This document shows, in pieces, positions 44,676-48,489 of a stretch of 58,071 nt of DNA. The notes under the pieces were generated by a model that was not told the DNA's origin, did not search any database, and saw only the letters and a list, made by a program, of their open reading frames with translations. The position numbers and the translations under genes are program-made. The DNA lies in the NCBI GenBank assembly GCA_913056175.1, contig CAJXLM010000014.1, forward strand, positions 1-58,071, read 5' to 3'. Origin of the DNA: an uncultured Opitutia bacterium (lineage in GTDB: Bacteria > Verrucomicrobiota > Verrucomicrobiia > Opitutales > Puniceicoccaceae). The stretch's first letter is position 1. Every line of letters begins with the position of its first letter.

Positions 44676-45167
44676 ATGCGACGTGCAGCGGGCTTTACCT
44701 TAATCGAGATCCTCCTGGTGGTGGGCGTGCTGGGGATTCTTGCCGGGATCACCTTGGGGATCAGCAGTGGCATCCGGGAACACCGCCGGCAACAACAAGC
44801 GCGCGGGGAGTTGGCCGCCCTCGCCGTGGCCCTCGAGAGCTACCGGGCCGAACACGGCGATTATCCGGTGGCGACGGGAACCGGCGAAAATGGCGGGGAT
44901 GCGGGCACCCTTCTCGCCAGCCTGGCCCCGCCGGAAGGGAGCGGGCCGACCTTCCTCCACCGCGAGCGGTTCGCGCGGGGCCCCGCCGGCGAGACTCTCC
45001 TCGACCCCTGGAAGAACCCCTACGTGTACCGCTACGATCCCGATTGGACGGCGCGTGCCGGCTTTCTCCTCTACAGCCGGGGGCCCGATGGCGACCACGA
45101 GCCTCCCTCTCCCGCCGGCCGCCCCGACCGCTCCGCTCCCGCCAACCTCGACAACCTCTCTCCCTGA
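44676..45167 (+). CDS. GspG-like pseudopilin
   Basis: A 163-residue pseudopilin. The leader MRRAAG is followed by FTLIEILLVVGVLGILAGI, with cleavage at Gly|Phe and Glu at +5. The body has the GspG plan: a LAALAVALESYRAEHGDYPV helix and a C-terminal WKNPYVYRYDP segment, but the usual calcium-site and DLGSDG patterns are altered. It probably forms the pseudopilus shaft for the secretion operon, which has no GspG. Confidence 0.85.
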   Translation: MRRAAGFTLIEILLVVGVLGILAGITLGISSGIREHRRQQQARGELAALAVALESYRAEHGDYPVATGTGENGGDAGTLLASLAPPEGSGPTFLHRERFARGPAGETLLDPWKNPYVYRYDPDWTARAGFLLYSRGPDGDHEPPSPAGRPDRSAPANLDNLSP

Positions 45168-45221
45168 GACAATCCTCTCCCGAGCCCGCGACCCTCCCCC
45201 GCGGGCCCTGCCGTTCCTGCC

Positions 45222-45761
45222 ATGCGCGACCGCCTCCCCCCGCGGCCCAGCCGGGCTTTTCCGCCGGGCCTTTCCCTCGTCGAACTGCTCGTGGTCATCG
45301 CGCTCCTCGGCCTCCTCGCGGGGATTCTCCTGCCCGTGGGCCTCTCCGTTCGGCAGAGCGCCCTCGAGACCAGTACCCGGGCCCGCTTCGCCCAGTACGC
45401 CACCGCGCTGGAGCAGTTTCGCCAGGACTACGGCTACTACCCGGATCTCGGCGGCACCCTCGGCGGCAAGGGAGACCTCTTCCACCGGGTCCTCAGCGGG
45501 AACGGGAGCGAGCGGACCCACAATCCCCGCAACATTCGCTACCACACTTTCGCAGCGGACGAGTTCGATGCGGACGGCCAACTGGTGGACGCCTTCGGCA
45601 ACGGCGACCTCCGCATCGTGGTCGACGGGGACCTCGACGGGAGGCTTCCCGCGGAAAAGTTCGCCGGGATTGCCGTGGAGGAGGATCTCCACCTGCCCGT
45701 GGCCATCTACTCGGTGCCCGGTCCGGGCAACGGGTCCCCGGCCGTCCGTAGCTGGGAATGA
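45222..45761 (+). CDS. Second GspG-like pseudopilin
   Basis: A 179-residue pseudopilin with a longer leader (MRDRLPPRPSRAFPPG) followed by LSLVELLVVIALLGLLAG. A FAQYATALEQFRQDYGYYPD helix links it to the GspG/PilE group. The C-terminal part (RIVVDGDLDGRLPAEKF) is acidic and could hold a metal. It lies 54 bases after the first pseudopilin, so the two are likely one operon and may be related by duplication. Confidence 0.82.
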   Translation: MRDRLPPRPSRAFPPGLSLVELLVVIALLGLLAGILLPVGLSVRQSALETSTRARFAQYATALEQFRQDYGYYPDLGGTLGGKGDLFHRVLSGNGSERTHNPRNIRYHTFAADEFDADGQLVDAFGNGDLRIVVDGDLDGRLPAEKFAGIAVEEDLHLPVAIYSVPGPGNGSPAVRSWE

Positions 45762-45851: not shown

Positions 45852-46361
45852 ATGCCCGCCCGTTCCCGCACCTGCGTCGTCCACCGCTCGACCATCCACA
45901 ACCGCGGCCTCTACGCCCGGCGCGAACTCTCCGCGGGGGAGTACATCGTGGAATACCTCGGCGAGAGGATCACCAAGAAGGAATCGGAACGGCGCGCCCT
46001 CGCCCGCGAGCAGCGCGGCCGGCGCCACGGCACCGCCACCGTCTACATCTTCGAGCTGAACAGCCGCTACGATCTCGACGGGGACTGCGCCGGCAACATC
46101 GCCCGCTTCGCCAACCACAGCTGCGAGCCGAATTGCGAGGCCGTCAACGACCGCGGCCGGATCTGGCTGGTCGCCCGGCGGGCCATCGCCGCCGGAGAGG
46201 AGCTCACCTTCGACTACGGGTTCGGGCTCGATGTGGCCACCGACCATCCCTGTCGCTGCGGGGCTCCCTCCTGCCCGGGCTACATCGTGAACGAGGCCGA
46301 CCGACCGCGCCTGCGCAAGCGGCTGCGCCAGAGGAAGCAGCGGGCCCTCCCCGCCGCATGA
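45852..46361 (+). CDS. SET-domain protein-lysine methyltransferase
   Basis: A 169-residue protein that is almost only a SET domain. It has RGLYARRELSAGEYIVEYLGE, the active-site motif RFANHSCEPN (about 85-94), ELTFDYGF (DY at 121-122) and a post-SET zinc site CRCGAPSC with further cysteine C91. It should transfer a methyl group from S-adenosylmethionine to lysine. Bacterial SET proteins are known in chlamydiae and elsewhere, mostly with unknown targets. I use the ATG at 45852. A TTGACC box lies 60 bases upstream. The stop overlaps the next gene by 4 bases. Confidence 0.92.
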   Translation: MPARSRTCVVHRSTIHNRGLYARRELSAGEYIVEYLGERITKKESERRALAREQRGRRHGTATVYIFELNSRYDLDGDCAGNIARFANHSCEPNCEAVNDRGRIWLVARRAIAAGEELTFDYGFGLDVATDHPCRCGAPSCPGYIVNEADRPRLRKRLRQRKQRALPAA

Positions 46362-47563
46362 CCACCTCCCCCTCCCCGGGCCGCCCCGCCGCACGCCCCG
46401 GCCGGGATCGCGAAAACCGCCGGGTCCTCGTCCTCACCTCGAGCACGGGCGGGGGCCACGACATGCGGGCCCGCGCCCTCCAGGCCTGGAGCCGCACGGG
46501 GGAAGGCCGCCGCTGCGGGCTCCACGTGGAAATCCACCAGACCCTCGAGAACACCCACGGGGTCTACGAGTTCGGGGTGCGGCTCTACAACCGCATCCAG
46601 CAGTTCTGGCCGAAGCTCCACCACCTCTACTTCCACTTCCTCGAGCACGCCGGCCTCCACGATGCCGCCACCAAGATCTGGGGGCGCGACCGCTTCCTCC
46701 GCCGGGTCCGCGATTTCCGGCCGCACCTGCTCGTCAGCACCCACGCCCACCTCAACCACGGCTTCTTTGAGTTGGCCCGCTGGGGCCTGCCCGACCAACC
46801 CCTCCGTACGGTCACCTACTGCGGCGAGCTGGCCGGGGGCTATGGGTTCAGCCGGCACTGGGTCAACCCGCGCGTCGACCTCTTCATGGGAGCCGTCGAG
46901 GAGACCTGCGGGGAAGCCGCCCATCTCGGCGTGCCCGAGGAAAGGCTCTGGAGGGGTGGCTTCCTGCTCCACCCAGACTTCTACGCCGAGGCCGCCCCGG
47001 ACTCCCGGGCTCAGTTGTGCGAGCGCCTCCAGCTCGATCCGGGCCGCTTTCTCCTCGTCCTGAGCACCGGAGCCAACGGGGCCAACAACCACCTGCGCGC
47101 CCTCCGCGCCCTTTGCGCCGCCCGGGTCCACCCCCAGGTCATCGCCCTCTGCGGACGGAGCACGGAAACCGTCACCGCGGTGGAGGAGTGGGGCCGCCGA
47201 CACCCGGAACTCACCGTGCGCGCCCTCCCCTTTGTCGACCAGATGCGCCCGCTCCTCCAATCGGCCGACGCTCTCGTTGCTCGCGCCGGCACCGGCACGA
47301 CCAGCGAGGCCATCCTCACCCGCTGCCCCCTCATCTTCAACGGGATCGGGGGATCCATGCCCCAGGAGGAACTGACCCTGAAGTACGCCCGCAAGTACGG
47401 ATTCGGCCGACGCCTCTCCCGGACCCACCAGCTCCCCGGGATCGTGCGGGAATGGATGACCGATCCGGGCCGCCTCCGCGCCGAGAGCGGGACGATGGCA
47501 CGCATCGCTCCGGATCGCCACCCTCTCATGATCCTCGACCGTCTCGCCTCCCTCGTGCCATGA
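46358..47563 (+). CDS. GT28 glycolipid glycosyltransferase (MGDG/diglucosyldiacylglycerol synthase-like)
   Basis: A 401-residue enzyme. The N-domain begins VLVLTSSTGGGHDMRARALQAW, the signature of monogalactosyldiacylglycerol synthase and UgtP-type processive transferases. Late parts include VARAGTGTTSEAIL, CPLIFNGIGGSMPQEELTL and the sugar-donor site. It should add a hexose to diacylglycerol or a related lipid. It overlaps SET and SCP2-like genes by 4 bases each. Substrate and product are not proved by the sequence. Confidence 0.85.
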   Translation: MTTSPSPGRPAARPGRDRENRRVLVLTSSTGGGHDMRARALQAWSRTGEGRRCGLHVEIHQTLENTHGVYEFGVRLYNRIQQFWPKLHHLYFHFLEHAGLHDAATKIWGRDRFLRRVRDFRPHLLVSTHAHLNHGFFELARWGLPDQPLRTVTYCGELAGGYGFSRHWVNPRVDLFMGAVEETCGEAAHLGVPEERLWRGGFLLHPDFYAEAAPDSRAQLCERLQLDPGRFLLVLSTGANGANNHLRALRALCAARVHPQVIALCGRSTETVTAVEEWGRRHPELTVRALPFVDQMRPLLQSADALVARAGTGTTSEAILTRCPLIFNGIGGSMPQEELTLKYARKYGFGRRLSRTHQLPGIVREWMTDPGRLRAESGTMARIAPDRHPLMILDRLASLVP

Positions 47564-48348
47564 AGAACTTTCCCCGCCGCACCTCGGAGCGGATCGGGGC
47601 CGAGCTCTTTTTCCGCGCGGTCCTGCCTGCCCTCGAGACCTGGGCACGCTTCGACCCACGGGCCCCCTCGCTCCTTCCCCGGTCCCCGCTGCGGGCCACC
47701 TTCGCCACCTCGGGCCGGGGCCCGAGCGCGGACCTCGTCGCCGACCGGGAGGGAATCCGGGTCGAGGCCGCGGGGGACATCCCCGGCCAGCTGAGGATCG
47801 ACCTCGGCCCGGAGTCCGCTGTGGCCGCCATGGTCGGGGGGCGTCGGCCTACCGCCCGCCTTCGGGGGGGGCTCCGCCACCCGCTCCGGCTCCTCCGGCT
47901 GGCCCGAATCTTCCGGCGCTTCCAGCAACTGCTGGAACCACCGGCGCGGCTCCGCGAAGATCCGCAGACCCGGCTCCTCCATGTCCGCCTCGCCCTCCAA
48001 GTGGCCCTCTCCGGGCTCGTCGTGCTCAGCCGGGAGGAACCCTCCCTCCAGCCTGTGCTCGGCGCGGTGAAGGATGGTGTCGTCTTCTTTGCCACGGCCG
48101 ACGGACCCCTGCGCGCCGCCCTCCGCAAGGAGGGGACCCGGCTCGAGCGGGTCGAGGGAGAGGACGCACCGACCACCACGGTTCGCTTTGCCTCCACCCG
48201 GGCCGCCATGCGCATCCTCACCCAGCGCTTCGATCCGACGGTCGCTCTCGCCCAGGGAGAGGTCGAGGTGCGCGGCTACGTGCCCCTCGCCGATGCGGTC
48301 GGGCATGTGCTCGACCGGGTCGCCGACTACCTGCCCCCTCCCCGCTGA
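47560..48348 (+). CDS. SCP2-like sterol/lipid-binding domain protein
   Basis: A 262-residue protein with no signal peptide. The segment TTVRFASTRAAMRILTQRFD followed by VALAQGEVEVRGYVPLADAV resembles the C-terminal half of an SCP2 domain. An earlier ADLVADREGIRVEAAG...LRIDLGPESAVAAMVGG may be its first half, separated by an Arg-rich insert. SCP2 proteins hold lipids. Its overlap with the glycolipid transferase suggests it binds the lipid substrate or product. The family call is moderate. Confidence 0.6.
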   Translation: MKNFPRRTSERIGAELFFRAVLPALETWARFDPRAPSLLPRSPLRATFATSGRGPSADLVADREGIRVEAAGDIPGQLRIDLGPESAVAAMVGGRRPTARLRGGLRHPLRLLRLARIFRRFQQLLEPPARLREDPQTRLLHVRLALQVALSGLVVLSREEPSLQPVLGAVKDGVVFFATADGPLRAALRKEGTRLERVEGEDAPTTTVRFASTRAAMRILTQRFDPTVALAQGEVEVRGYVPLADAVGHVLDRVADYLPPPR

Positions 48349-48412: not shown

Positions 48413-48489
48413 TGCAGGGTGGAGCAGCCAGGTAGCTCGTCAGGCTCATAACCTGAAGGCCGCCAGTTCAAATCTGGCCCCTGCACCCA
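48413..48489 (+). tRNA. tRNA-Met (CAT), probably initiator
   Basis: A complete 77-base cloverleaf with encoded CCA and anticodon loop CTCATAA. The D arm (GAGCAGCCAGGTAGCTC) and the TTCAAAT T loop are those of initiator tRNA. The anticodon stem TCAGG/CCTGA has only two of the three G:C pairs typical of initiators, and position 1 is T pairing with A72, with C at the discriminator. So the initiator call is likely but not certain. Confidence 0.85.

Follow-up and report, generated by a model that had tools for sequence, protein, structure and literature searches.

The locus raises the question of why a SET-domain protein, a glycosyltransferase (GT) of the GT28 type and an SCP2-like protein are encoded by overlapping genes, and whether the three act as one system or whether two functions share an operon.

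Gene order and protein families of the operon

The window, meaning the whole stretch of 58,071 nucleotides analyzed here, comes from a Verrucomicrobiota bacterium of the Opitutia and forms contig C14 of its genome, which comprises 2.6 Mb in a total of 84 contigs. The features of the operon are listed in Table 1. All three open reading frames were on the plus strand and were coupled by two ATGA overlaps, the pattern noted in the preliminary description, and the protein families named there (SET, GT28 and SCP2-like) were supported. Two pseudopilin-like genes were located directly 5' of the SET gene (window about 44676-45761), an arrangement shared with loci L017-L019, in 4/4 genomes of the family. 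A tRNA-Met was located directly 3' of the operon (window 48413-48489).

Table 1. Positions of the operon features within the window.
Feature	Position	Strand	Remarks
SET-domain protein gene	45852..46361	+	169 aa; SET core of the MLL/Set1 type, carrying NHSC, ELTFDY and post-SET CxCxxxxC
ATGA start-stop overlap, SET to GT	46358..46361	+	read from sequence
GT28-type glycosyltransferase gene (MGDG/UgtP/MurG-like)	46358..47563	+	401 aa
ATGA start-stop overlap, GT to SCP2-like	47560..47563	+	read from sequence
Tandem SCP2-like putative lipid-carrier gene	47560..48348	+	262 aa
N-terminal SCP2-like domain	47593..47934	+	residues about 12-125 of the SCP2-like protein
C-terminal SCP2 domain	47974..48330	+	residues about 139-257 of the SCP2-like protein

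The SET-GT-SCP2 trio is a real, conserved operon. A chance arrangement was excluded because the GT gene immediately preceded the SCP2-like gene in all of the first 15 carriers, in most of them with a -4 overlap, and because SET was directly upstream of GT in 12/177 genomes of the order, belonging to five families (f1, f3, f12, f19 and f21). In the gene-order survey the GT-SCP2 adjacency recurred, while the full trio was kept together in one clade only.

The SET domain (PF00856) scored 88.8 bits against a cut-off of 22.4 in a Pfam profile search. The catalytic motifs NHSC (residues 88-91) and ELTFDY (residues 117-122) were present, as were the post-SET cysteines noticed earlier (CRCGAPSC, residues 134-141). 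The closest solved chains were of the Set1/MLL type, and this SET gene was the only one found in the genome. From these features the product is a stand-alone putative protein-lysine methyltransferase, for which we infer both the methylation itself and its target. It resembles Chlamydia NUE and other bacterial SET proteins (PMC2904774, PMC3980110) in being a short bacterial SET-domain protein, and differs from them in being encoded beside lipid genes.

The GT was assigned to GT28 by Glyco_tran_28_C (PF04101), with 31.5 bits against a cut-off of 22, and its best solved relative was the plant MGD1, with a near full-length alignment. An alignment of 15 GT sequences contained 68 invariant columns. 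The earlier assignment to the MGDG/UgtP kind is upheld by these results, although both more specific cut-offs were missed: the MGDG_synth N-domain (PF06925) narrowly, with 23.4 against 25 bits, and the UgtP equivalog (NF010135) by far, with 69.4 against 500 bits. Thus, the GT is like MGDG synthase and the diglucosyl-diacylglycerol synthase UgtP in its C-terminal domain and its alignment to MGD1, but it lies far below equivalog level and is paired with a tandem SCP2. Its relatives differ further from these enzymes in having FumI-like aminotransferase and SPT-like genes nearby.

The SCP2-like protein scored above cut-off with none of the Pfam profiles, and the SCP2 profile itself missed it (12.4 bits against a cut-off of 21.3). 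An AlphaFold2 model of the whole protein was confident (pLDDT 88.5, pTM 0.86), and its C half displayed an SCP2 fold at a Z of about 11, with human SCP2, C domains of alkylsulfatases and UbiJ among the structural matches (Z 9.5-11.5). Since Foldseek with the whole model returned mainly one-domain matches, the N half was modelled separately; it matched SCP2 at Z 9.1, while Foldseek with this half alone reached an E of 0.004 at best and weaker values otherwise. Profile alignment of the N half with the C half ran end to end (hhalign 95%, E 2e-8), which identifies them as homologous. These models make the SCP2-like protein a tandem SCP2: the halves that had been called SCP2-like in the preliminary description both have the predicted lipid-carrier fold, and a lipid-carrier function would be in line with it. 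UbiJ, whose SCP2 domain belongs to the ubiquinone metabolon, is a bacterial example of this fold acting alongside enzymes that modify lipids, and was matched at Z 9.5-10.5; the window protein differs from it by the tandem arrangement of two such domains, by its neighbours and by a Pfam SCP2 score under the cut-off. The tandem SCP2 defines a bacterial family of putative lipid carriers that is missed by Pfam search.

The conserved core

Neighbour clustering detected a class-III aminotransferase gene directly downstream of the SCP2-like gene in 18 loci. In G310 and G341 the GT gene was alone, and SCP2 and aminotransferase genes were located together elsewhere. The window's genome carries its aminotransferase on another contig (C10:30473-31669). 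Among the 177 genomes of the order, 37 had both the SCP2-like protein and the aminotransferase, 137 had neither, and only 2 and 1 had a single one of them (Fisher 1.5e-34, a value that overstates the number of independent cases since the genomes are related). The three exceptions were G376, whose aminotransferase was a truncated fragment at the end of a contig, G343, with SCP2 at a contig start, and G296, a genome 77% complete.

SET followed another distribution. It was present in 97/177 genomes of the order, that is in 24/39 with the SCP2 core and in 73/138 without it (p=0.37), so the two occur independently, and the idea that the module requires SET was rejected. The conserved core is GT28, tandem SCP2 and class-III aminotransferase, not the SET trio. 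The view of the three genes of the operon as one system is not supported in the form given, as GT-SCP2 belongs to a different core. The accompanying remark that no described system was recognized still stands, as a limited literature search found no published description of the set of GT28, tandem SCP2 and FumI-like aminotransferase.

A candidate glycolipid pathway

The best PDB match of the aminotransferase was FumI (6hbs), with 333-336 bits versus 163-177 bits for GSA aminomutase, for a linked copy and for the copy of the window's genome. Among solved class-III aminotransferases FumI obtained 335.6 bits, compared with 176.7 bits for the next best. This aminopentol aminotransferase is thus the closest solved relative of the core enzyme. 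Hydrolysed fumonisin B1 loses its C2 amino group through the action of FumI (PMC2933618), and fumonisins are sphinganine analogues (PMC7711896). While FumI works in fumonisin breakdown, the core aminotransferase instead partners the GT and the lipid carrier, at loci outside the window.

In families f5, f14, f22, f24 and f34 the GT gene was found near genes for an SPT-like alpha-oxoamine synthase, ACP, KAS and SDR, which did not all occur at each locus, and near a GT4 gene. An SPT-like gene was detected in 26/26 GT carriers searched, including the window's genome, a weakly discriminating count as the sample comprised GT carriers only. In the window's genome this gene is on another contig (C27:20993-22147), and the best PDB match of its product was the Sphingobacterium SPT (300 versus 253 for AONS/KBL). 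The core loci thus share with bacterial sphingolipid synthesis (SPT, ACP and ceramide genes) an SPT-like gene in every tested GT carrier, near the GT in several families. They depart from it in the combination of GT28, tandem SCP2 and FumI-like aminotransferase, which we did not find described for that pathway. Two results count against such a pathway. The SPT-like protein of the relative L146 fell under the NCBIfam SPT equivalog cut-off (385 versus 640), and in the family to which the window belongs the genes for the aminotransferase and the SPT-like protein were both away from the operon.

Two other lipid classes have to be weighed. The GT-SCP2 pair could make ordinary glycoglycerolipids in the manner of MGDG synthase or UgtP, with SCP2 carrying diacylglycerol. 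The families and structures that fit the GT best are indeed MGDG synthase and UgtP-type enzymes; yet its score is far under the UgtP equivalog cut-off, and the genes next to its relatives encode SPT-like, ACP, KAS, SDR and FumI-like aminotransferase proteins, which makes this reading rather doubtful. SCP2 proteins are able to bind sterols, and class-III aminotransferases are found in hopanoid synthesis, so the module might alternatively modify hopanoids or sterols, with SCP2 as a sterol-type carrier and the aminotransferase acting as in hopanoid amination. We regard this as highly improbable. The aminotransferase is closest to FumI, and the N-domain of squalene-hopene cyclase had no match in 14/18 carriers searched, the window's genome among them, by which a hopanoid role is largely refuted.

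The likeliest role of GT28, SCP2 and aminotransferase, judged by sequence relationships, would be synthesis or modification of a sphingolipid-type glycolipid, with SCP2 as the lipid carrier. This reading is based on the FumI-like aminotransferase, the GT near SPT-like clusters, the SPT-like gene in all searched carriers and the lack of a hopene cyclase match in most carriers searched. The pathway looks like one that is undescribed so far. GT28 and tandem SCP2 would be two thirds of the lipid module and the FumI-like class-III aminotransferase its third part, and the SPT-like alpha-oxoamine synthase would catalyze the first step of the pathway that the module serves. The SCP2 pair may bind a lipid of the long-chain sphingoid or ceramide-like type and present it to the GT for sugar transfer and to the aminotransferase for amine chemistry on the long-chain base. 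We infer the lipid identity, the enzyme reactions, the carrier function and co-expression alike. Spt-like proteins have been reported in 22 Verrucomicrobiota MAGs (PMC11334938), and the core offers a concrete, testable gene set for sphingolipid-type glycolipid synthesis in this phylum.

Distribution and possible role of the SET protein

The -4 overlap between SET and GT was also found in f19 and f21. Two altered cases were detected, G012 (f10) with one open reading frame between SET and GT, and G356 (f20) with a broken SET frame; in both the SET-GT neighbourhood was retained and no SCP2-like gene or FumI-like aminotransferase was detected. On the GT tree all 14 SET-linked rows fell into one group of 19 rows with moderate support (82/86), and the linkage needed 3 changes. 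The simpler reading of this tree, which is not thereby proven, is one ancient gain followed by two losses (f4 and G005), with the linkage kept in about seven families. The SET tree argued against a single gain, as the linkage needed 6 changes on it, 3 of them forced by starred branches. Because the linkage appears old and was kept in one GT clade, a functional tie between SET and GT is plausible. Most SET orthologs were located elsewhere than beside GT, many of them divergent from parB.

The preliminary description had guessed that the transferase or the lipid carrier is a substrate of the SET enzyme; such a modification would regulate glycolipid synthesis. The adjacency kept in about seven families is in favour of this, and so are the -4 overlaps in three of them, which are consistent with translational coupling. 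The SET-GT pair also persisted in G012 and G356 where the rest of the core was not detected, though with the interruptions described above. The alignments gave the guess no support. Among the 12 SET-linked GTs or SCP2-like proteins no alignment column was lysine throughout, the best reaching 10/12. At the four best columns the window proteins have Q or R, and the single lysine that they do have in a column of this kind is at a position with K in 8/12. The window GT and SCP2-like proteins contain only 4 and 3 lysines, respectively. A conserved methylation site on either partner appears unlikely from these alignments, which still allow a poorly conserved one. Since SET also occurs independently of the SCP2 core, we consider methylation of the two neighbours quite improbable. 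A broader version, in which SET controls the sphingolipid-type glycolipid pathway of GT28, tandem SCP2 and FumI-like aminotransferase by modifying some pathway protein or regulator, seems unlikely as well, if slightly less so; if true, it would tie protein methylation to bacterial membrane glycolipid synthesis.

SET might instead be a chromosome-related lysine methyltransferase that acts on a DNA-associated or Lys-rich substrate or on itself, its place beside GT being an old accident of gene order. In 25/79 stand-alone SET loci, all in one clade, SET was divergently paired with parB, and many genomes had SET without GT. SET proteins carry Lys/Arg-rich tails after the post-SET region, longest in f21, and a Chlamydia SET protein has been described as methylating histones (PMC2904774). 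However, most families of one clade have kept SET linked to GT, a pattern that accident by itself would not favour, and the parB pairing was not seen in the window's order. We take this to be a serious possibility, if somewhat short of even.

The best explanation, to which we give about an even chance, is that the operon joins GT28 and tandem SCP2 of a sphingolipid-type module with a SET methyltransferase whose target is other than its two neighbours. A single event in an ancestor shared by several Opitutia families would have brought SET to its place upstream of GT, where most of them would have kept it, and the most likely substrate of SET would be a protein other than GT or SCP2. The conserved gene next to this bacterial SET protein provides a handle on SET methylation targets in non-pathogenic bacteria.

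Some further features of the SET loci were observed. The open reading frame between SET and GT in G012 (L128:972-1982) was phosphotransferase-like, with matches to macrolide/aminoglycoside phosphotransferases far below cut-off, and the SET gene upstream of GT in G356 was split over two frames (L135:4321-4826). L098 was not counted among the SET-GT links, since its GT match, at 292 bits, is a distant GT28 and is separated from SET by other open reading frames. The SET-parB pairs (L039, L041, L045, L097 and 21 others) had gaps of mostly 85-870 bp and belonged to one Verrucomicrobiota clade. The f21 SET proteins (L129-L132) displayed C-terminal Lys/Ala-rich, histone-H1-like tails of 60-99 residues with 44-50% K+R.
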